DNA from: Teretinema zuelzerae
GTDB lineage: Bacteria; Spirochaetota; Spirochaetia; Treponematales; Treponemataceae
Assembly: GCF_021021555.1 (NCBI RefSeq)
Contig: NZ_JAINWA010000001.1
Coordinates: forward strand, 248,001 to 312,000
Length of the DNA: 64,000 nt
Direction: 5' to 3'
Positions 10,856 to 53,925 of this stretch are shown here, in pieces. A program made the translations under genes and the position numbers. Each line of letters opens with the position of its first letter. The first letter of the stretch is position 1. The notes beneath the pieces are model-generated. The model made no database searches and had not been told where the DNA came from. It saw nothing but the letters and a program-made list of their open reading frames with translations.

Positions 10856-12835
10856 TCAATCTGTATATTTGAACCGGAAAGGCTTGAATTCCCTTCCCGT
10901 TTCTGTAAAAAATTTAGAGAAAAACTCGTAGTACTGCAGCCTGATCACCTGGATGGCGACGATAAGACCTTCAAGAATGATTATAATCGCATTTCCGAAA
11001 ATGCCTATCGCGATGCCCCCGGCGGAAAGAGAGCCGCCCACCAGATCGGACATTGTAAAGATGATAAAGCTGAGGACCGCATGAGAAAGGGCGAACGCGC
11101 CGACGCGCAGGAAGCTGACAGAATTGGAAATATAGGTTGAAACGACTTCCAGTATTTCGACGATTCCTTCGATCACGGCCGAGAAAAGTCCGTTCTCGAA
11201 CACAGGCCGATGCCCCTCGAAAAGCCTGGTGAAAGGCTCGGCGAAAAAGATGCCTATGAGGGGAATTGCGATGCCGACGATATCGAACCATGAAAATCCG
11301 ACGCCGCCGAGAAGAACGCGGATAACGAAGGAAGCTACGTACCAGAAGAAGAAGGCGCCGCACACGCCCGTCTTGCTGAACACGGCGTGGGCCGGCTTGC
11401 CGAGCGAAAACTGGTTCACGATGTTGATTATCAAGCCCACGGAATTGATGATGAAGCCGACGGCCACGGTGAACCCGAAAAACACGATCAGTTTACCCAA
11501 CGAATCCTTCGACGGCATCATATGAAGAATGTGATCGCGCGGTTCTCCGAATAATCCGGTGACGAACCGGCTGAACGGGCGGAGCACCTCGGAATTTGCG
11601 AAAAACTCTCCCGTAAGAAGCCCCATAACCATGCTGGAGCAGCCGATCGCGACGAAAATCGGCCCGAAGTTGTTCCAGTTTTTAAGGACCTTCGCTTTTT
11701 TGGAAATCATGAGAAGTCCGATCAAAAAGAATACCAACCCCTGCCCTACGTCTCCGAACATGATTCCGAAAAGCAGGGTGAAGAAAAAAGCGACGACGGG
11801 AGTCGGATCGACCGTACCGTACAGAGGCGCGCCGTAGCTGAAAATCATGCGCTCAAAGCTTTTCACGAAAGCGTTATGCCGGTACTGCACCGGAACCTTT
11901 TCATGACCGTTCTTCACGGACGGAACTTCGCCGGGTTCGTAGGTGCGTATAGCGATTCTGCCTTCCGTGAGGTTGTCGAGATCGCGCATCACCTGAGAGC
12001 AATCGGAGGCTGCGATCCAGCCCATAATACGATATACCAGCTGCGTGGCTTCGAGGCTCTCCCTGATGCGGGAAACCTGCGCTCCCAAAGAAAAGGACTC
12101 AAGAAGCCTTCTCAACTGTTCCGCGTGGGCATCGGCATAGCGATCTCGTTGAGCGGATAGATCGGCAAGCTCGCGATCGGCCTCCTCCGACTGTTTTTGC
12201 AGTCCTTCGAGCACGTCGTCGGGCACGCCTTTGAAATCTTTCGGCACTTCCAGGGCGATGAAGCCGAACTTTTTGAGTTCGCTGTCGAGCGCGAATCTGC
12301 CTTTCTTCGAAGCGGCGGCCAGAATCCGCGAATTATCCGCGCCGAGGGACACGATGACGGCTCTGTCGCCTACGGAAAACCGGAGTTCTTCGAAAATAGA
12401 TGGATCGATTTTTCCGATCCTCATCGATAAAAAGGTAAGATGTTCGAGTTCCGAGTACGCAACCTTCAGGTTCGCAAAGGCTTTAGCCTCGTCCCAGGCC
12501 GAACGTATGCGCTTCTGCCGGTCGCCGGCTTCGTTTTCTCTTCGGCGCATATCTTCCACCGCCGCGAGGATGTCCTGAGCCGACGCGTAATCTGAATCCC
12601 CGGGAAGCGAGGAATCATCGCTCCAGGAAGATACGTCGGGGAGCTTGAGAAATGAACGGCATGACTGAAGTTGATCGAACATGGCGCGATGAGGGTTATG
12701 AGCCGAATCTGCCGGGAGTTCGGTCTCGTTTTGAATCTGGAAGTTGGCGGTCTTCCCCAGATATTCCAATACGCGGTCGATATCCTGGCGGAGAATCATC
12801 AACTCTATGAGTTTCATCTTTGTGGTTTTAAACAT
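10856..12835 (-). CDS. atpI: V-type ATP synthase/ATPase subunit I (stator a subunit)
   Basis: 659-residue stator subunit. Residues 1-330 are soluble and helical, forming the arm that contacts the peripheral stalks. The C-terminal half has seven or eight membrane helices, starting at PVVAFFFTLLFGIMFGDVGQG, a family hallmark. Later helices include VGAFALSHAVLSFIIF with the conserved RVGAFALSHA segment carrying the essential Arg for ion transfer. The ATG follows GGGAGG and overlaps the end of atpC by 8 nt. Confidence 0.95.
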   Translation of the reverse strand: MFKTTKMKLIELMILRQDIDRVLEYLGKTANFQIQNETELPADSAHNPHRAMFDQLQSCRSFLKLPDVSSWSDDSSLPGDSDYASAQDILAAVEDMRRRENEAGDRQKRIRSAWDEAKAFANLKVAYSELEHLTFLSMRIGKIDPSIFEELRFSVGDRAVIVSLGADNSRILAAASKKGRFALDSELKKFGFIALEVPKDFKGVPDDVLEGLQKQSEEADRELADLSAQRDRYADAHAEQLRRLLESFSLGAQVSRIRESLEATQLVYRIMGWIAASDCSQVMRDLDNLTEGRIAIRTYEPGEVPSVKNGHEKVPVQYRHNAFVKSFERMIFSYGAPLYGTVDPTPVVAFFFTLLFGIMFGDVGQGLVFFLIGLLMISKKAKVLKNWNNFGPIFVAIGCSSMVMGLLTGEFFANSEVLRPFSRFVTGLFGEPRDHILHMMPSKDSLGKLIVFFGFTVAVGFIINSVGLIINIVNQFSLGKPAHAVFSKTGVCGAFFFWYVASFVIRVLLGGVGFSWFDIVGIAIPLIGIFFAEPFTRLFEGHRPVFENGLFSAVIEGIVEILEVVSTYISNSVSFLRVGAFALSHAVLSFIIFTMSDLVGGSLSAGGIAIGIFGNAIIIILEGLIVAIQVIRLQYYEFFSKFFTETGREFKPFRFKYTD

Positions 12836-13841
12836 TTCGACCGCCTCCCATAAACTCTTTCATTTGTTCTTCAGTTGCGCCGAGCCGCAATCCTTCGGCT
12901 GCGACGCGAATCATCTGTTCTTCCAATTGCTTGATTCTAAAAAAAGAAGCAAGCACGCCGGCGGTAAACGGTTTTTGATGAAAACCGGAAATAGCCTGGC
13001 GATAGAGATAATTATCTGAGGAAAGCTGGGCCCAGCGGGGATCCAGGAACCAGGGCACCCCTTCTTCATGCTGATTTAAAAGCCACTTATACTGCCAAGA
13101 AGACCAGGGCTCCCAGGTATCAAGAGGCCAGGAAAGGATCTCCCTGGCGGGTCCGCAGAGCCGTTCGTCGTCTTGTTCCCCGTTGCAAGCGAGCAGAGGC
13201 AGAATATCCTCAGCTGTTTTCTGGTAGTACACGCGAAGGCGCATCGCCCACACGATATTTTGAAGAATTATCTCGTCGGCAATGAGGGCATCCGCGGCTT
13301 CGCGGTCGCTGCGGTTGAGCCTTTTCAGGGATGTCCACAAAAGCCGATAATAATCGTTGTCGATCCGCGTTTCCCACACAATCTCTTCTTCCGCATCGGG
13401 AATATGATCGCACCAGGAAAGGCTGGTTCCTGCGGTCATCGCGGCGATATCCGGCCACTTATCGTGATGAAATATCGAGAACTTCCCTAAATCCACCATA
13501 AAGGGCGCTTCGGCGTTTCCCAGCAAAAGGGAAGACAAGGCCGATTTTAAATTTGCGTAGTCGTACCGCGCGAGCAAAGCCCGGGCAAGGGGATCCGGCG
13601 AATCATAGGCGGAAAGCAAAACGATATAATCGGAAACGACCTGCTGAGCCGATTTTCGTTCAAGCAGAAGAGCGAGCATGCCTTCAGGAACGACGGGAAC
13701 ATCGTCTGAAAAAAGAAGAGTCCACAAATCCTGAAGCCGCTTGATCTCGAAGAGTTTTTTAGCTTTTAGGCCGGTATAGGAACGGCCGTACATTCCGCAT
13801 GCCTTGGCATAGACATACGCATCTGCCGCTGTTCTGTCCAT
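12828..13841 (-). CDS. atpC: V-type ATP synthase/ATPase subunit C (V-type d-like)
   Basis: 337-residue helical funnel subunit that links the central shaft to the membrane ring. The segments AYVYAKACGMYGRSY at the N-terminus and LLARYDYANLKSALSSLL near residue 95 match the V0D/AC39 family. No membrane segment is visible. It is separated from the preceding coiled-coil gene by 2 nt and overlaps atpI by 8 nt. Confidence 0.88.
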   Translation of the reverse strand: MDRTAADAYVYAKACGMYGRSYTGLKAKKLFEIKRLQDLWTLLFSDDVPVVPEGMLALLLERKSAQQVVSDYIVLLSAYDSPDPLARALLARYDYANLKSALSSLLLGNAEAPFMVDLGKFSIFHHDKWPDIAAMTAGTSLSWCDHIPDAEEEIVWETRIDNDYYRLLWTSLKRLNRSDREAADALIADEIILQNIVWAMRLRVYYQKTAEDILPLLACNGEQDDERLCGPAREILSWPLDTWEPWSSWQYKWLLNQHEEGVPWFLDPRWAQLSSDNYLYRQAISGFHQKPFTAGVLASFFRIKQLEEQMIRVAAEGLRLGATEEQMKEFMGGGRNV

Positions 13842-13843
13842 GC

Positions 13844-14149
13844 TTATAAACCCGCTGTCACGGATTCGAGGTAGGCTGCCATAGACTGATAGTCTTTAGG
13901 AATCGAGGTTAATTCTGAATCGAACCGCGAGTATTCGGACGACAGACGGTCGTCGCAGGCTTTTTTTTCGCGTTTGAGCTCTTCTTCCAGGCGAGAGATG
14001 ATTTGTTCGTAGGCGGCTTTGAATTCGGCATCAGCCTTTTCTTTCGCGGCGGCCTTTCGCCTGTCGGCTTCGGTTTGAGCGTCGAGCAGCAAATCGTATG
14101 CAAGCCGCTCGACATCGATAAGATGTCCGATTACATCCTGTGCAACCAT
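13844..14149 (-). CDS. Coiled-coil protein, V-type ATPase subunit G/H-like peripheral stalk
   Basis: 101 residues, nearly all one long charged helix (ADRRKAAAKEKADAEFKAAY, then EEELKREKKACDDRL). It is the first gene of the V-ATPase operon, with a strong GGAGG before the ATG. The length, the heptad-like pattern and the position fit the G/H subunit that pairs with subunit E in the peripheral stalk. Primary sequence in this family is poorly conserved, so the call depends largely on context. Confidence 0.75.
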   Translation of the reverse strand: MVAQDVIGHLIDVERLAYDLLLDAQTEADRRKAAAKEKADAEFKAAYEQIISRLEEELKREKKACDDRLSSEYSRFDSELTSIPKDYQSMAAYLESVTAGL

Positions 14150-45044: not shown

Positions 45045-45404
45045 ATGAATATTCTAGAAGCGCAACAGGCCCTTCAGGCAGACATGATAGCGGACACCGC
45101 CCGGGCCGACATTGAAATCGCCTCCGCGTGCGGGGCCGACCTCATGAGCGACGTGATGGCCTTCGTGAAGGATCAGGTTCTCCTGATGACCGGACTCATC
45201 AACATTCAGGTAATACGCACCGCCATCCTGATGGATATTCAGGCAGTCTGCTTCGTCCGGGGGAAGACTCCGAACCAGGACATGATCGACATGGCGAAGG
45301 AAAACGGCATCGTCCTGCTGACGACGCGGCTTCCCCTCTTTCTGGCCTGCGGCCTCCTCTACGAAGCGGGAGTCCGCCAGGGCGGCGTGCGGGAAATCGG
45401 GTAG
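45045..45404 (+). CDS. DRTGG-domain protein
   Basis: 119 residues from the ATG at 45045; a longer reading from 44883 overlaps aroC. The sequence LLMTGLINIQVIRTAILMD and GKTPNQDMIDMAKENGIVLLTTRLP fits the DRTGG domain, a small alpha/beta unit often fused to phosphotransacetylases and found beside [FeFe]-hydrogenase-like genes in anaerobes. It starts a four-gene run with the GHKL ATPase and the H-cluster protein. It may bind a nucleotide or act as a regulatory partner; the function is unproven. Confidence 0.75.
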   Translation: MNILEAQQALQADMIADTARADIEIASACGADLMSDVMAFVKDQVLLMTGLINIQVIRTAILMDIQAVCFVRGKTPNQDMIDMAKENGIVLLTTRLPLFLACGLLYEAGVRQGGVREIG

Positions 45405-45413
45405 CGGGCAGTT

Positions 45414-45836
45414 ATGACATACCGCTTCGACGTACCGGGAAACGATTTTACCCAGGCAGGAAACGCGTCGGCGGAGATGAAGAAAATTCTCCTCCGCCTG
45501 GGCGTAAGCGGAGACGTAATCAAGCGGACCGCGGTCGCCATGTACGAGGCTGAAATCAACATGGTGGTGCACGCCGGAGGCGGAGAGGCCGAGATACGGC
45601 TCGAACCGGGCGAAATCGTCATCGTCATGACGGATCACGGGCCGGGGATTGAAAACCTCGAGCTCGCCATGCAGGACGGCTATTCCACCGCTCCCGAACT
45701 CGTCCAGCAGCTGGGATTCGGCGCCGGAATGGGACTGCCCAACATGAAGCGCAATTCGGACGAACTGGCCATCGAGACGGCTCCCGGAAAGGGAACGACC
45801 GTCACCATGAAAATACGCATACCGGAGGCCGGATGA
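45414..45836 (+). CDS. GHKL ATPase, RsbW/SpoIIAB-type anti-sigma factor-like
   Basis: 140 residues that make up only an HATPase_c domain. N box: MYEAEINMVVHAGGG. G1 box: DHGPGIENLEL. G2: FGAGMGLPNMKR. C-terminal strand: GKGTTVTMKI. There is no dimerisation/phospho-acceptor or sensor domain, so it resembles serine-protein kinases of the RsbW type. It overlaps the H-cluster gene by 4 nt (ATGA), so the two are probably made in step. It could phosphorylate a partner or give the hydrogenase-like protein a signalling output. Confidence 0.85.
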   Translation: MTYRFDVPGNDFTQAGNASAEMKKILLRLGVSGDVIKRTAVAMYEAEINMVVHAGGGEAEIRLEPGEIVIVMTDHGPGIENLELAMQDGYSTAPELVQQLGFGAGMGLPNMKRNSDELAIETAPGKGTTVTMKIRIPEAG

Positions 45837-47335
45837 ACCGCAGATGGCACTCGGTCTACCTCGACGAAGACGCGTGCAAGGGATGCACGATCTGCGTAAC
45901 CACCTGCCCGACCGAGGCGATCCGAGTACGGGACGGAAAAGCCCGCATTATCGAGGAACGCTGCATAGACTGCGGGGAGTGCATCAGGCGATGCCCGCAT
46001 CACGCCAAAAAAGCGCGGAGCGACGACCCGGCGATGATCGCGCCTGCGGACTCGGCTGCGGCCGCCGACAGCGGACTATCCGCGCTGTACGAGCTGAAAA
46101 TCGCGATACCGGCGCCCTCCCTCTACGGCCAGTTCCCCGTAAAATATTCGATAAACGAAATCCATCGCGCGCTCATAGACTGCGGCTTCGACATGGTATA
46201 TCCGGTGGCGGCCGCTACCGGCGGAATCGCGGGAGCTTCGGCAGCCTTCCTCGACCGCGCGCGCTACCCGGACCTCCCGCGGCCCCTCATCTCCTCGAGC
46301 TGCCCTACAATCATCAAGTTCATACAGATCCGCTTTCCTTCGCTCATAGAAAACATCGTGCCGGTAATCGCTCCCATGGAGCTTGCCGCCCGCATGGCCC
46401 GCGCTGAAGCGAAGCGGCTCTTCCCGAACCGCCCGAAAGCCGGCGTATTTTTCATCTCGCCCTGCGCGGGAAAAATAACAGAGGCGAAAAGCCCGCTCGG
46501 GGACGAGACCTCTTCCGTGGACGGCGTGTTCAGCATGGCCGACTTCCACCTTCCCATGCTCGCCGCCCTCCAGAAAGCAGGCGAAGGGGACGGAGCCCCG
46601 CAGCCGCTCAGCCTGTATCCCGAAGACATCGCCTGGTCCCGCGCAGGCGGGGAAGCCGAAGACACCGGAGCCGAGAAAGGAACGGCAACGCTCGCGGTGG
46701 ACGGAATGGACCAATGCGTAAAGATCCTTGAAGCGGTGGAAGACGGAAAGCTCGACTCGGTAGACTTTCTGGAGCTGATGGCCTGCGCCTCAGGCTGCGT
46801 AGGAGGCCCGCTCACGGCCCTTACCCCGGCGCTCGGCAAACACATCGTAAGCGAACGAGAAAAAGAGCTCGCCGCACGCCCGGAAAAGACGGAACAAACC
46901 CTCGTCGTCCGCAGAGAGCTTCTCGCGGAAGCAGCCGCGATAACCGACGTTCGCTCGAAAGCGGACGAACGGTCCGCGACGGCCCGGCAGGAAGGAACGA
47001 AAACAGCCGAACCGGCGTCCGAGACGGCGCGGAATGCAGAAGCCGCGCGCGCGCGCAGGCTCGACTGCGAGCGATGCCTCCGCACCGAACGATTCCCGCC
47101 CCGCCCTGCCCTCCAGCTCGACAGCGACTACCGGCGAGCCGTAGAACTGATGGAAAAAATGGAAGAAATCCGCGCGGAGCTTCCGGGACTCGACTGCGGC
47201 TGCTGCGGAGCCCCCAACTGCCGCGCGCTCGCCGAAGACATCGTAAAAGGCCTTGCCCGCAAAACGGATTGCGTTATTATTCTAAAAGAACAATACCGCA
47301 AACTGCTGGAACGCCGCGGGGGAGAAGACGCATGA
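45833..47335 (+). CDS. [FeFe]-hydrogenase-like protein with H-cluster motifs (sensory type)
   Basis: 500 residues. Residues 1-60 hold two [4Fe-4S] ferredoxin motifs (Cys15, 18, 21, 25 and 44, 47, 50, 54). The catalytic-type domain has all four cubane ligands: Cys157 (SSSCPT), Cys211 (ISPCAGK), Cys318 and Cys322 (LELMACASGCVGG). The first motif is SSSCP, not TSCCP, so the proton-relay cysteine of fast hydrogenases is Ser here. After a linker (380-410) comes CERC at 412-415 and a four-Cys iron-sulfur domain (LDCGCCGAPNC, 455-463). There is no PAS domain. These features suggest a slow, redox- or H2-sensing protein rather than a bulk hydrogenase. Maturases HydEFG are not in the window. Confidence 0.85.
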   Translation: MNRRWHSVYLDEDACKGCTICVTTCPTEAIRVRDGKARIIEERCIDCGECIRRCPHHAKKARSDDPAMIAPADSAAAADSGLSALYELKIAIPAPSLYGQFPVKYSINEIHRALIDCGFDMVYPVAAATGGIAGASAAFLDRARYPDLPRPLISSSCPTIIKFIQIRFPSLIENIVPVIAPMELAARMARAEAKRLFPNRPKAGVFFISPCAGKITEAKSPLGDETSSVDGVFSMADFHLPMLAALQKAGEGDGAPQPLSLYPEDIAWSRAGGEAEDTGAEKGTATLAVDGMDQCVKILEAVEDGKLDSVDFLELMACASGCVGGPLTALTPALGKHIVSEREKELAARPEKTEQTLVVRRELLAEAAAITDVRSKADERSATARQEGTKTAEPASETARNAEAARARRLDCERCLRTERFPPRPALQLDSDYRRAVELMEKMEEIRAELPGLDCGCCGAPNCRALAEDIVKGLARKTDCVIILKEQYRKLLERRGGEDA

Positions 47336-47943
47336 AACATGAACTGCGCCGCGAAATGAAGAGAAAACTCCAAGCTCTCGGCGAAGGAGAGGTATTCAGA
47401 GTCGGCATGAGCGAGGAAGTTCTTCCGAAAACGACAAAAACGCTGTTCACCTACCTGCCCTTCGGGAACGAGATAGATCCTTCCGGGCTCGCCGGCTGGG
47501 CCCTCGATGCCGGAATCGAGGTAGGAGCCCCCTGCGTGCGCGGAGAGGACCTCGAGTTCAGAAAAATCGAATCCGCTGACGGCCCCTTCCGGTCCGGAGG
47601 ATTCGGCATCCGCGAACCCCTTGCCGACGCTCCCCTCCTGTGGAGTCCCGCGGCCGAAAACCGCGGAGGATGCCCGAAACTCGAGAGTCTCCTCCCCCTC
47701 GCCGTACTCGTTCCCGCGCTCGCCTTCTCCCGCTACGGGCACCGGCTTGGACGCGGGAAAGGCTGCTACGACCGCTTTCTCTCCGCCCTCCTGAAGGCGG
47801 CAGGCGACCGGAGAAAGGAAATAACGCTCATCGGAACCTGCCACGACTGGCAGATACTGAGCCATGTTCCCGCCGAATCCCACGACATCCCGGTCGATTG
47901 CCTTCTCACCGGCAGGGGATGTATAGTATGCGCAACAGAATAA
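47332..47943 (+). CDS. 5-formyltetrahydrofolate cyclo-ligase family protein
   Basis: 203 residues from the ATG at 47332, overlapping the preceding stop (ATGA). The N-terminus KHELRREMKRKLQAL and the nucleotide loop RLGRGKGCYDRFLS match the MTHFS family, which converts 5-formyl-THF to 5,10-methenyl-THF with ATP. The usual GYGKGYYDR appears as GRGKGCYDR. The later IPVDCLLT replaces the common VDYVITP. It may be a true cyclo-ligase or a related kinase-like enzyme. It is coupled to the hydrogenase-like gene. Confidence 0.85.
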   Translation: MKHELRREMKRKLQALGEGEVFRVGMSEEVLPKTTKTLFTYLPFGNEIDPSGLAGWALDAGIEVGAPCVRGEDLEFRKIESADGPFRSGGFGIREPLADAPLLWSPAAENRGGCPKLESLLPLAVLVPALAFSRYGHRLGRGKGCYDRFLSALLKAAGDRRKEITLIGTCHDWQILSHVPAESHDIPVDCLLTGRGCIVCATE

Positions 47944-49119: not shown

Positions 49120-50190
49120 TTACTCTTTCCGCAGCCTCATCCAGCTTGGCAATGCAAGCTTGAATTTGCCGCTCCCGCGCACCCACACGACGACGCTTTG
49201 CAAGACAATGAAAACGTAGAGGAGAAGTCCGCTTACAATTGCCTGAAAGTTGGAATTGACGCCCGCCGCGCGGATGAGTTCGTTGATAGTAAGAAGCGTG
49301 AGCGCGCCGATCGGAGAACCGAAGAGGTTTCCCACGCCGCCGGTGAGCATCGTGCCGCCGATGATGGAGGCGGCGATCGCTTTCATCTCGAAGCCCGAGG
49401 CGTTTCCGACGTTGCCCGCTCCCGTCGTCATAATATAGACGAAGCCCGCGATTCCCGAAAGCGCTCCGCACAGGAGATACGACATGAACTTCGTCTTGCG
49501 CACATTGATGCCGAGCATCAGGGCACTCTGACTGTTGCCGCCGACCGCGTAGAGGTTGCGACCGAAGCGGGACCACTTCATGAGAGCGACGAGGATGACG
49601 ATGAGGACCAGTGCAACCATTGTGCCGAGTTTGATCTGGAGCGGGATGAAATTTCCCAGCCGGTTATTATTGCCGAGGAAGGGAATGACGATGTTGTAAT
49701 CTCTGAGCGCGACGAAGCCTTCGTGCGACACGTTGATCGGGTCCTTGTGGATCGTGGTCAAAAGTCCGTTCGCGAGGAACATGCCGGCGAGAGTGATAAT
49801 AAACGGCTGAATCTCGAGGTACGAGATAAGAAAGCCCTGCAAGACGCCGAACGCGAAGCCGATGGCAAGAGCGAGGATCATGGCGCCGCCGATGCTGCCG
49901 CCCTTCGATTGAAGGAAGACCGCGCAGCACATGGTCACGAGGCCTGTCACCGCGCCGACAGAAATGTCGATGCCGCCGCCGATCATGACGATGCTGATGC
50001 CGAGCGTCAGGATGATAAGCGGGGCGTTCAGGCTGAAAAGGTCGAAGAAGGTCTGGAACTGCAGGAAACTTCCCGGATAGCGCACAATGGCGAATCCATA
50101 CATCAATACGAATATGACCGCGGCGATGATGAACAGCAGATTCGAATTCGAGAGCGCTTCCTTTGCCTCAGGATTTTTCAACGTTGCCAC
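49120..50190 (-). CDS. Sugar ABC transporter permease 2 (RbsC/YjfF-like)
   Basis: 356 residues from a GTG at 50190, with GGAGG upstream, 1 nt after the previous gene's stop. About nine membrane helices. The segments ILTLGISIVMIGGGIDISVGA and LYAVGGNSQSALMLGI are typical of the RbsC/YjfF permease family; the EAA-like loop contacting the ATPase is around LYAVGGNSQSA. It pairs with the other permease as a heterodimer, as in the E. coli ytfQRT-yjfF galactofuranose system. The substrate sugar is not identifiable. Confidence 0.9.
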   Translation of the reverse strand: MATLKNPEAKEALSNSNLLFIIAAVIFVLMYGFAIVRYPGSFLQFQTFFDLFSLNAPLIILTLGISIVMIGGGIDISVGAVTGLVTMCCAVFLQSKGGSIGGAMILALAIGFAFGVLQGFLISYLEIQPFIITLAGMFLANGLLTTIHKDPINVSHEGFVALRDYNIVIPFLGNNNRLGNFIPLQIKLGTMVALVLIVILVALMKWSRFGRNLYAVGGNSQSALMLGINVRKTKFMSYLLCGALSGIAGFVYIMTTGAGNVGNASGFEMKAIAASIIGGTMLTGGVGNLFGSPIGALTLLTINELIRAAGVNSNFQAIVSGLLLYVFIVLQSVVVWVRGSGKFKLALPSWMRLRKE

Positions 50191-50191
50191 A

Positions 50192-51277
50192 TTAAGCCTC
50201 CTTCTTCGCCGGCGCATCTGGCGCAGCGTTTTTTCTCGCGATGTCGCCGAAGGAACCACCGCCCGTCCGCATCCTCGCACGGGCGAAATACTCGCGGACT
50301 GCGGGAGAGGAGATTATCATGAGGATAATGATGAACACGGCCTTGAAAGCTTTGATCGTCTCGGTGCCGACCTCGAGTCTGAGCAGCGTCCTGCTCAGCA
50401 TCTCGATAGTGTACGCGCCGATGATCGAACCGGTGATGCTGAACTTTCCGCCGGACAGGGCGTTGCCGCCGATGGCGACGGCGAGGATCGCGTCCATCTC
50501 GACGAACTTGAGGATGTTGACGCTGTCGTGGCGGCCGGCTTTAGTAACCGCGATGAAGCCTGCGACCGCTGTACAGATTCCGAGAAGCATGTAGGACAGG
50601 AATTTGATCCGTATCGGGTTGATGCCGTTAAGCCGCGCCGCCTTCTCGTTGATTCCAACCGTCTCCGAGTAGAGCCGGAGATTGGTCACCTTGAGGAAAA
50701 CCGCGACGATCACGATAAAGATAGCCGTCAGAAGGATCGGCGTCTGTATCGGCAATCCCGGCATGATCCCGCCGATCTGGCTCGTCAGTTCATTGGCGAG
50801 AACGGGAGAGAGCTTGCCGTCGATCATAAACGAGATGGAGCGCCCCGCGGTAAACAGGATCAATGTCGCGACCATCGGCTGCACCTTGAATATTGCGACC
50901 AGAGAGCCGTTGAACGCGCCGATGACGATGCCGACGCCGCAGCTTATAAGGAAACCGAGAAAGATGGTCATCCAGGTGATCTCGCTCGATTGGAGGAGAA
51001 ACTGGACGAACACGGCGGACGTGATCGCGGCGGCAACGCCGACGCTGATGTCCTGCCCGCGCGAGGACGCGGTGACCAGCGTCATGCCGATCGAAAGAAT
51101 TACAAGCTCCGAAGCGCCGAAAAGCATGTTCGGAATGTTCCCGTACAGAGCCCCGTTAATCATCTTAACGCTGAAATAATCGGCTCCCTTGATCAGGTTT
51201 ATCACGACAAGGATCGCAAGAACCGAGAGAGGGAGCAGGAGATGTGAAAAGTGCTGAGCGATTCTGTTCTGTTTCAT
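50192..51277 (-). CDS. Sugar ABC transporter permease 1 (RbsC/YtfT-like)
   Basis: 361 residues from the ATG at 51277, which overlaps the ATPase stop (ATGA); a longer reading to 51382 is rejected. About nine membrane helices. The signature ILSIGMTLVTASSRGQDISVG matches the CUT2 permease family, followed by LRLYSETVGINEKAARLNGI. With the second permease it forms the membrane channel. A Pro/Ala/Lys-rich tail ends the protein. Confidence 0.9.
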   Translation of the reverse strand: MKQNRIAQHFSHLLLPLSVLAILVVINLIKGADYFSVKMINGALYGNIPNMLFGASELVILSIGMTLVTASSRGQDISVGVAAAITSAVFVQFLLQSSEITWMTIFLGFLISCGVGIVIGAFNGSLVAIFKVQPMVATLILFTAGRSISFMIDGKLSPVLANELTSQIGGIMPGLPIQTPILLTAIFIVIVAVFLKVTNLRLYSETVGINEKAARLNGINPIRIKFLSYMLLGICTAVAGFIAVTKAGRHDSVNILKFVEMDAILAVAIGGNALSGGKFSITGSIIGAYTIEMLSRTLLRLEVGTETIKAFKAVFIIILMIISSPAVREYFARARMRTGGGSFGDIARKNAAPDAPAKKEA

Positions 51278-52776
51278 TTGTGTCCCCCCGCTATGACGTG
51301 CATAACGTCTTTTTGCGTCAAATTCGCGCCGGTCAGCTCGCCGGCGATCTGGCGGTCCTTCATGACGATGAGGCGCGAACAAGTCCGGAGCATTTCCTCT
51401 ATTTCGGAGGAAATGAACGTAACGCTGACGCCCTCTTCGGCGAGTTTGAGCATCAGTTTCTGGATTTCCACCTTGGTTCCGACGTCGATGCCCCGCGTCG
51501 GCTCGTCAAGAATCAGGTACTTGGGGTGCGTCAAAAGCCATCTGCCGAGGATAACCTTTTGCTGGTTGCCGCCGGAAAGCTGCTTGATGGGCGTATTGAC
51601 GGATGCGGTCTTGATGCTCAGGCGCTTTACGTACTCGTCCGCGAAAGCTTCCGCCTGTTTCCGCGAAAAGGGCCTGAAAAATCCCTTCATGACCTGCATT
51701 GCGAGAATGATATTATCGCGCACCGAAAGGTCGGCGATGATTCCGTCGCCCTTGCGGTCCTCGGGGAGGTAGCCGATGCCCTGCCTCATCGCATCGATAG
51801 GCTCGTCGATTTTTGCCTTCTTGCCGTTGATTTTTATCTCGCCGCCGGTAACCTTGTCCGCGGCGTAAATCGCGCGAACGCTCTCGCTGCGGCCGGATCC
51901 GAGGAGCCCGGTGAATCCGTTTATCTCTCCCTTCCGTATTGCGAAGTCAAAGGGCTTCACTCCCGCATCGCTCGAAAGGCCAGAAGCCTCTAAAACAGGG
52001 ACGCCGCCATCAAGCGTGCAGGTCTCGCCCTTTTTCAGGTTTTCCACGTCCTCGAGCGCCTTGCCCATCATCTTCGAGACCAGCTCGAATTGGGGAAGCG
52101 AAGCGGCTTCGTATTCTCCGATCAGCTCTCCGTTGCGGAGGACCGTGATTCTGTCGCTTATTTCATATACTTGATCGAGAAAGTGGGTGATAAAAACGAT
52201 TCCCACGCCTCTCGACTTGAGTTCGCGCATAAGCTCGAAAAGTTTCCGTACTTCATCCTCGTCGAGAGAGGATGTCGGCTCGTCGAGGACGAGAATTTTG
52301 CAGTCCATGTCGACTGCGCGCGCGATCGCGATCATCTGCTGCACCGCTAGCGAACAGCTCGAAAGCTGTTGGGTCGGCCTCGACGGAATGCTGAGCGAGT
52401 CGAGCAATTTCTTCGCTTTCGCGTTCATGCTGTTCCAGCTGACGAATGCATGCCTGCCCCGGCCGATGAACATGTTTTCCGCGACGGTCAGATTGGGACA
52501 CAGGGTTATTTCCTGGTAGACCGTGCCTATTCCATTGTCTTGCGCCTCTTGCGGCGATTTGAAGTGAACCGGCTTTCCTTCAACGGTTATTTGACCGGCG
52601 TCTTTTTCGTATACGCCCGTCATTACCTTAACAAGCGTGGACTTGCCTGCTCCATTTTCACCCATGAGTGCGTGGACTTCGCCTTTTCGCAACGTAAAGT
52701 TAACGTTCGACAGAGCCCGGACCCCGGGAAAGGTCTTGCAGATTCCCTGCATTTCTAGCACCTTATCCGACTGCAA
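51274..52776 (-). CDS. Sugar ABC transporter ATP-binding protein (CUT2 type)
   Basis: 500 residues with two ABC domains. First domain: Walker A GENGAGKST, signature LSSCSLAVQQM (diverged), Walker B ILVLDEPTSSLDEDE. Second domain: a degenerate Walker A (GLLGSGRSE), signature LSGGNQQK, Walker B YLILDEPTRGIDVGT. This tandem layout, with one weak site, is characteristic of MglA/RbsA/YtfR. It powers uptake of a pentose or hexose. It follows the binding-protein gene across a hairpin and is coupled to the permeases. Confidence 0.95.
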   Translation of the reverse strand: MQSDKVLEMQGICKTFPGVRALSNVNFTLRKGEVHALMGENGAGKSTLVKVMTGVYEKDAGQITVEGKPVHFKSPQEAQDNGIGTVYQEITLCPNLTVAENMFIGRGRHAFVSWNSMNAKAKKLLDSLSIPSRPTQQLSSCSLAVQQMIAIARAVDMDCKILVLDEPTSSLDEDEVRKLFELMRELKSRGVGIVFITHFLDQVYEISDRITVLRNGELIGEYEAASLPQFELVSKMMGKALEDVENLKKGETCTLDGGVPVLEASGLSSDAGVKPFDFAIRKGEINGFTGLLGSGRSESVRAIYAADKVTGGEIKINGKKAKIDEPIDAMRQGIGYLPEDRKGDGIIADLSVRDNIILAMQVMKGFFRPFSRKQAEAFADEYVKRLSIKTASVNTPIKQLSGGNQQKVILGRWLLTHPKYLILDEPTRGIDVGTKVEIQKLMLKLAEEGVSVTFISSEIEEMLRTCSRLIVMKDRQIAGELTGANLTQKDVMHVIAGGHK

Positions 52777-52810
52777 TTAGAGACCTCCTTCGGCTTACCG
52801 CGCATATTAA

Positions 52811-52836
52811 AAAAGCGGTGCGGCAGACCGCACCGC
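52811..52836 (-). terminator. Intercistronic terminator-like hairpin between binding protein and ATPase genes
   Basis: On the minus strand GCGGTGCGG-TCTG-CCGCACCGC (9-bp perfect stem, 4-nt loop) then TTTTTTAAT. It would stop most transcripts after the binding-protein gene, giving more binding protein than membrane subunits. A second GC-rich hairpin lies at about 52840-52875. Confidence 0.75.
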
Positions 52837-52917
52837 GCGATGCGGCGGCCGGAATCAACCGGAACGCCGCGCCGCCCTTTCAAAACGACTGATCGTGCAT
52901 AAACGCCTGAAGGACGG

Positions 52918-53925
52918 TTACTTTGTGATCACGCCCTTTCCGGGATCGGCATTGAGGCCGAGTTTGGTGATGATGTCGTCGGTGATCGTCGCGGTGTCCG
53001 CGAAGATTTCTTTCTGGAAGACGATTCCGGTCGGTAGCGTACCGGACTTGATCCACTTGGAAATCTCGCCTGCCTGGCGGGGGCTGCACTGCACGTCGCA
53101 GTCCCAGTATCCGGCCTGCACGTTGCGGAGAGCGAAGCGGTTAAAGTCGAATCCGAGGATTTTGACCTTTCCGTCCTTTCCATGGGTAATGCCGGCAGCG
53201 TCGAGAGCCTGAACGGCGCCCTGGGCCATGCCGTCATTTTCGGCGTAGATCACGTTGAAGTCTTTCTTCGCGGCGATCGCGGCTTCCACCACTTTGCGGG
53301 CTTCTTCGAGGCTCCAGCTGTCTCCGCCGGTACCGTCGGCGACCAGGTTGATCTTGCCGTCGGCCTTGGCCTTGAGCACGGCGGCGGAGCGGCCGAGTTC
53401 GGCGGCCGAACCAAGCTGTCCGCGGATGAGGATGAGATTAACCGTGCCGAGATTCTGGGCGAGAACCCAGTTCATAGCGGTGTTTCCCTCGGTCGCCATG
53501 TCGGAGACGAGAGCTGCCTGAAAGTTCGAGGCATCGGTATCAATGAGGCGGTCAAAGAGGAACACCTTGACGCCCGCGGTCTTCGCGGATTTAAGGACGT
53601 TGTCCCATCCGGACGCGTTCGCGGCAGAAATAAGGAGATAGTCGACGCCGTCGCGGATGTAGCCCTGAGCGGCGGCGATCTGCTCGCTGTTGTCGCCGGT
53701 GTTTGTCTGCTTCGCGTCGTAGCCGTTCGCTTTCGAGAAGACGGCGTTCATGTCTTCGACGTTCGCCTGGCGATATCCGGACTCTTCCGGCGGCAGGTTA
53801 ACGATACCAACCTTTATAAGCCCGCCAGCCCTCGGTGCCGCATCGCTCTTTCCGCCGGCGAATACCGGGGTTGCCATGACCATGGCCAAAAGGGCCAAAA
53901 TGGCGATCTTCGTGATCTTTTTCAT
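52918..53925 (-). CDS. Periplasmic sugar-binding protein of the ABC transporter
   Basis: 335 residues. A signal peptide (about 1-23, ending TPVFAGG) with no lipobox, then a type I periplasmic binding fold. The segments NSEQIAAAQGYIRDGVDYLL, KVFLFDRLID, NVIYAENDGMAQGAVQALDAAG and AGYWDCDVQCSPRQAGE match the RbsB/YtfQ class. The first gene of its operon, it delivers the sugar to the permeases. The leader holds an inverted repeat. Confidence 0.92.
   Translation of the reverse strand: MKKITKIAILALLAMVMATPVFAGGKSDAAPRAGGLIKVGIVNLPPEESGYRQANVEDMNAVFSKANGYDAKQTNTGDNSEQIAAAQGYIRDGVDYLLISAANASGWDNVLKSAKTAGVKVFLFDRLIDTDASNFQAALVSDMATEGNTAMNWVLAQNLGTVNLILIRGQLGSAAELGRSAAVLKAKADGKINLVADGTGGDSWSLEEARKVVEAAIAAKKDFNVIYAENDGMAQGAVQALDAAGITHGKDGKVKILGFDFNRFALRNVQAGYWDCDVQCSPRQAGEISKWIKSGTLPTGIVFQKEIFADTATITDDIITKLGLNADPGKGVITK

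Follow-up and report, generated by a model that had tools for sequence, protein, structure and literature searches.

A conserved GHKL ATPase as a candidate signaling partner of a group D putative sensory [FeFe]-hydrogenase in the spirochaete Teretinema zuelzerae

The genome of Teretinema zuelzerae (Spirochaetota; 3.62 Mb) carries, in the 64,000-nucleotide stretch of contig NZ_JAINWA010000001.1 analyzed here (hereinafter, the window), an operon that exemplifies well, in a spirochaete, a group of H-cluster proteins known from earlier work and that sharpens the candidate for the signaling partner of this group. The H-cluster protein, HydS, is by its sequence a group D (M2e) putative sensory [FeFe]-hydrogenase, with all the published sequence features of that group, and the conserved GHKL ATPase encoded next to it stands out, on the basis of gene order, as a concrete candidate partner. 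On balance, it appears somewhat more likely than not that the operon combines HydS with a dedicated signaling pair, the GHKL ATPase and a DRTGG-fold protein, and that its effect is to tune HydABC, the bifurcating hydrogenase, according to H2 pressure. The group D class and the neighboring kinase-like gene are known from published work: a histidine-kinase gene by a group D-like gene, upstream of the bifurcating hydrogenase genes, was noted for all Thermoanaerobacter strains in 2013 (PMC3608648), and a histidine-kinase-like ATPase gene adjoining the gene for TamHydS, the group D (M2e) putative sensory [FeFe]-hydrogenase of Thermoanaerobacter mathranii (PMC8163306, PMC13104023), was noted in 2020 (PMC8163306). 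The depth of the ATPase adjacency, the DRTGG partner and the spirochaete carriers with no maturase over the cut-offs are new.

The DRTGG and GHKL genes are separated by 9 nt, whereas the GHKL/hydS and hydS/folate gene junctions are both 4-nt ATGA overlaps (Table 1); a chorismate synthase gene precedes the four-gene run and the gene for a DUF6657 protein comes after it. The reading frames and junctions, including both overlaps, are as described in the first-pass annotation of the window, and chance or spurious reading frames are ruled out by the conservation of the DRTGG-GHKL-hydS trio across loci. Elsewhere in the window (49120-53925, minus strand), there is a set of sugar-type ABC transport genes, namely two permeases, a double ATP-binding protein and a periplasmic binding protein, all named from reading the translations.

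Table 1. Genes of the operon and cluster-binding motifs of HydS (positions within the window)
Feature	Position	Strand	Basis
DRTGG-fold protein, 119 aa, probable nucleotide-binding or regulatory subunit	45045..45404	+	orthologues and predicted fold
Stand-alone GHKL ATPase, 140 aa, SpoIIAB/RsbW type	45414..45836	+	HATPase_c_2, PDB SpoIIAB match, motif conservation
Group D (M2e) [FeFe]-hydrogenase-like protein HydS, 500 aa	45833..47335	+	domains, residues, tree
Two N-terminal [4Fe-4S] motifs of HydS, C15,18,21,25,44,47,50,54	45875..45994	+	Pfam Fer4
H-cluster ligands of HydS, C157 (SSSCP), C211 (ISPC..K), C318 and C322 (ELMACASGC)	46298..46801	+	invariant 110/110
C-terminal [4Fe-4S] motif of HydS, Cx2Cx4Cx16C, C455/C458/C463/C480	47195..47272	+	Pfam FeS E=1.6e-10
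5-formyltetrahydrofolate cyclo-ligase, lineage-restricted neighbor	47332..47943	+	TIGR02727 over cut-off

Group D is marked by two N-terminal [4Fe-4S] motifs, an H-domain and a C-terminal Cx2Cx4Cx16C motif, together with the lack of a PAS domain and of the relay Cys (PMC8163306). In HydS, the H-domain is recognized with high significance (PF02906, E=1.3e-29), Ser156 occupies the position of the relay Cys (C299), no PAS domain was detected in a Pfam search, and, judging by the cysteines, the H-cluster and another three [4Fe-4S] clusters have intact ligands. The first-pass annotation had read the protein in the same way, with all four cubane cysteines (157, 211, 318, 322), Ser in place of the proton-relay Cys, no PAS domain and an extra C-terminal four-Cys domain; all these oddities are real but they are not peculiar to this protein, having been published for group D (PMC8163306, PMC3608648). 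Across an alignment of 110 HydS proteins, the window protein included, the 16 cluster cysteines are kept (a single row is gapped at the C15 and C18 columns), and neither the Cx2Cx4Cx16C motif nor the Lys that follows C211 varies in any row (110/110). The relay position is occupied by A (72), S (32) or else F, N or Y, never by C, and the M497 position varies (L/M/N/A/Q). The protein of Thermoanaerobacter wiegelii, which was put in group D by its domain architecture (PMC3608648), is 39% identical to HydS end to end, with Ala/Ser/Leu at the positions C299/M353/M497 versus Ser/Ser/Met in the window protein. A quick LG+G4 tree groups the window protein with all other group D rows, set off from the rest by a branch with SH-aLRT 100, the few, long-branched group B and C rows being themselves unsurely placed. 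The comparison with group C and D sensory hydrogenases that had been suggested for this protein thus yields group D features and a clade shared with the T. wiegelii protein. Assignment to group A was rejected on domains, residues and tree, and assignment to group C was rejected as well, no PAS or other fused signaling domain having been found and the residues and tree being in disagreement with it.

It is also conceivable that HydS is merely a slow catalytic hydrogenase that provides an extra electron outlet. Indeed, TamHydS, which binds four [4Fe-4S] clusters, catalyzes slow, reversible H+/H2 conversion (PMC8163306), but its specific activity is reported to be very low (PMC8163306), the relay Cys is absent in all 110 relatives, and the pairing with a kinase-like ATPase is near-constant in the listed loci; we consider this explanation highly improbable.

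The gene neighborhoods were compared in 110 loci, 30 from a search of the phylum (the window's own included) and 80 listed matches from a scan of named genomes, which were picked by likeness to the window HydS, so that the adjacency fractions pertain to close-to-moderate relatives among the matches listed. Within this set, hydS is immediately preceded by a GHKL ATPase gene in 104 loci out of 110, spanning two phyla, and the ATPase gene in turn by a DRTGG gene in 87 out of 110. Nearly all the hydS-adjacent ATPases are of stand-alone size, a best-scoring CBS-ATPase profile at these loci not denoting a fusion, and two relatives (L103, L122) have the DRTGG and HydS genes without an ATPase gene in between. 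Adjacency of this extent in two phyla points to a specific candidate partner pair, and the linkage of the trio outlives its separation from hydABC in spirochaetes. The earlier suggestion of a signaling unit made of a sensory-type [FeFe] protein and an RsbW-like ATPase is therefore strengthened insofar as the two form a conserved unit in which the ATP-binding residues are kept. The overlap of the folate gene with hydS, pointed out in the first-pass annotation, is real, yet only some spirochaetes have this neighbor: it is found downstream of hydS in 14 of the 110 loci (again, among the matches listed), every one from a spirochaete. A functional partnership was rejected for this lineage-restricted gene, which is probably a hitchhiker outside the conserved module.

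The ATPase matches HATPase_c_2 in Pfam (E=2.6e-11) and SpoIIAB in the PDB (E=5e-7), and its ATP site is intact as judged by the N box (E45/N49), the G1 box (D74-x-G76-x-G78) and the G2 box (G101-x-G103-x-G105-x-G107), with Glu45, Asn49, Asp74 and the ATP-site glycines conserved at 0.99-1.00 over 106 rows. Its best NCBIfam match is SpoIIAB, below the cut-off (53.9 vs 135 bits), and RsbW is also below its cut-off (23.2 vs 145 bits); with both curated cut-offs missed, a bona fide RsbW/SpoIIAB identity was rejected. One could still envisage that the ATPase works as a classical anti-sigma switch kinase, with a STAS protein as its phosphorylation substrate, control over a sigma factor as its output and HydS as one more input. 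This possibility is consistent with SpoIIAB being the best match, even at that score, and with four STAS matches in the genome whose open frames, at 113-120 aa, have the size of stand-alone proteins. However, the search for STAS or PP2C partners that the first-pass annotation recommended placed all STAS matches of the genome at a distance, with none near the hydS operon, and reading of neighborhoods by eye revealed no conserved gene for a sigma factor, STAS protein or PP2C, so that an anti-sigma switch of the classical kind seems quite unlikely.

The DRTGG protein of the window taken alone falls short of the Pfam cut-off (PF07085; 17.6 vs 25.2 bits), so that the label it received at first was not secured by this protein itself. 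Its identity rests on orthologues that exceed the Pfam cut-off, with 32 of 33 orthologues matching PF07085 at E<=0.01, and on the predicted fold (pLDDT 86), which matches the solved DRTGG structures 2ioj (E=9e-7, TM 0.81) and 3l2b.

The connection to HydABC emerges from both gene order and co-occurrence. The common order in clostridia is DRTGG-GHKL-HydS-DRTGG-PHP-HydC-GHKL-HydB-HydA. In T. zuelzerae, hydABC is on another contig (C3) than the hydS trio, in the order CBS-GHKL, DRTGG, PHP, a few other genes, HydC, GHKL, HydB, HydA, and the window ATPase is 52% identical to this CBS-GHKL protein; the arrangement looks as if HydS stood in for the CBS input of the CBS-GHKL protein ahead of hydABC. 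Group A HydA is present in 37 of the 39 HydS carriers among Spirochaetota compared to 159 of the 354 other genomes (Fisher p=2.5e-10, an optimistic value because these genomes are related). The tight linkage to hydABC in clostridia and the strong co-occurrence with group A HydA could also be accounted for if the trio were an ATP-driven, chaperone-like module for HydABC assembly or activation, in which HydS would serve as a scaffold or donate electrons, and the hydABC operon itself encodes a PHP protein and additional GHKL ATPases. However, 159 of the 196 group A-bearing genomes lack HydS, which is therefore dispensable for assembly in general, and HydABC complexes have been produced without the trio, so that we regard an assembly function as improbable. 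Regulation of HydABC by the trio remains the preferred reading.

Given that a lack of maturases had been named as an argument against a sensory H-cluster, it is pertinent that T. zuelzerae encodes HydG, HydF and HydE, all above the curated cut-offs and in one cluster; the possibility that they are missing from this genome was accordingly rejected. The gene between HydG and HydF is, we presume from its sequence, aspartate ammonia-lyase-like. In the HydG of T. zuelzerae, the C-terminal auxiliary-cluster motif, normally CTxC, is CTAG, with Gly for one conserved Cys; this HydG is one of 6 such variants among the 10 HydG sequences checked (L009, which is this HydG, L125-L128 and L133), and its full function is not certain because it belongs to this divergent set. 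HydG was detected in 15 of the 39 spirochaete HydS carriers; the remaining 24 comprise 6 with HydE and HydF (G149, G238, G266, G318, G362 and G345, without HydG at E<=1e-60) and 18 without HydE, HydF or HydG over the cut-offs. A search for the HydF dimer domain in 17 of these 18, all but a 69%-complete genome, found it in none, three controls being positive. No association between HydS and HydG was detected in Spirochaetota (15/39 vs 112/354, p=0.37), and 88 of the 196 group A-bearing genomes in the phylum sample lack HydG over the cut-off. Group A HydA is encoded in 16 of the 18 carriers with no maturase over the cut-offs (the 18 include G326, G358, G386, G374, G343 and G070), and three of the 18 are single-contig assemblies with five H-cluster proteins apiece, including a canonical HydA (TSCCPAW, MPCTAKK, E[VI]MACRGGC). 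Either the maturases of these genomes are beyond the models used or maturation differs. A literature search yielded nothing relevant on spirochaetes without HydEFG, and [FeFe]-hydrogenase genes in spirochaetes with no HydE, HydF or HydG over the cut-offs represent a separate puzzle of H-cluster maturation.

Retention of the module in the 18 carriers with no maturase over the cut-offs is compatible with HydS being an Fe-S redox sensor that contains only [4Fe-4S] clusters, without the [2Fe] subsite, and relays the redox state of ferredoxin to the ATPase. Also in line with this scenario are the cysteines, all kept in the aligned proteins, and the M497 position, which flanks the [2Fe] site and is free to vary. 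However, none of the four H-cluster ligands varies, nor does the Lys that follows C211, TamHydS is active once loaded (PMC8163306), and genomes without detected maturases also carry canonical HydA, so that H-clusters might still arise in them by a missed or unknown route. A cluster-only redox sensor thus appears rather unlikely.

Under the preferred reading of HydS as a sensor acting on HydABC, HydS would be loaded with the H-cluster and would bind H2 or equilibrate with the H2/redox state; because the relay Cys is absent, turnover would be slow and the protein would stay in a reduced, altered conformation. This state might change the ATPase activity through direct contact, the DRTGG subunit would contribute control by nucleotides, and the ATPase could then phosphorylate or sequester a target, the four unlinked STAS proteins of stand-alone size being candidates, such that HydABC would eventually be adjusted to H2 pressure. 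The group D clade, the 16 kept cysteines, the relay position without Cys, the published properties of TamHydS, the ATPase and DRTGG adjacency, the clostridial gene order, the co-occurrence with HydA, the presence of HydEFG and the CBS-fused relative of the ATPase ahead of hydABC support this proposal; the 18 of 39 carriers with no maturase over the cut-offs, the Gly in the HydG of T. zuelzerae, and L103 and L122 weigh against it. More tentatively, HydS, the GHKL ATPase and the DRTGG protein might constitute a soluble, H2-gated serine-kinase switch, and the ATPase might be the partner protein still sought for group D hydrogenases, the identification of which has been called critical for clarifying the signaling mechanism (PMC13104023). 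If so, an H-cluster protein would directly control a SpoIIAB-type kinase without PAS or a histidine-kinase phosphorelay, an architecture of which we found no description in the literature.

The T. zuelzerae genome encodes five H-cluster proteins. Two of these are encoded on one strand about 1.5 kb apart, one group B-like (L007:9310-10761, minus strand) and the other a separate group C-like, PAS-bearing protein (12259-14007, minus strand). Another (L008:8801-11182, minus strand) is a 793-aa fusion of ferredoxin, H-cluster, C-terminal FeS and methyl-accepting chemotaxis domains (PF00015, E=3e-47), which fits the described group C2 (PMC9431212).

Among the known systems, the ATPase shares with SpoIIAB/RsbW the stand-alone GHKL domain, the N/G1/G2 boxes and the catalytic Glu but differs in its scores below the curated cut-offs, in the lack of an adjacent sigma or STAS gene and in its genetic tie to an H-cluster protein. 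The DRTGG protein has the predicted fold of the DRTGG domains of the CBS-pyrophosphatase (3l2b/3l31) and AF1212 (2ioj) but, unlike these, is a stand-alone protein with invariant residues of its own (D32, S35, D36, T49, G50, R72-K74 and G103). Like the TmHydS-type group C (M2f) proteins, HydS has N- and C-terminal [4Fe-4S] domains and no relay Cys; unlike them, it lacks a PAS domain, and it has Ser at the M353 position where TmHydS has Gly (PMC8163306). With TamHydS, HydS shares the domain order, the 16 cluster cysteines, the Cx2Cx4Cx16C motif, the adjacent GHKL ATPase, the lack of the relay Cys and PAS domain, and a Ser at the M353 position; it also has the charged residues that have been described as group D-conserved (R31, R33, K36, R43, K59, D454, E468, D469 and D479). 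The differences are Ser at the relay position, where the T. wiegelii orthologue has Ala, Met instead of the Leu of TamHydS at the M497 position (PMC8163306), a low-complexity linker (residues about 346-440; window 46868-47152) that is longer than in TamHydS and other relatives and contains an extra CxxC (C412/C415), an additional C457 in the C-terminal domain, and a genomic setting in which hydS is unlinked from hydABC and followed by the folate gene.
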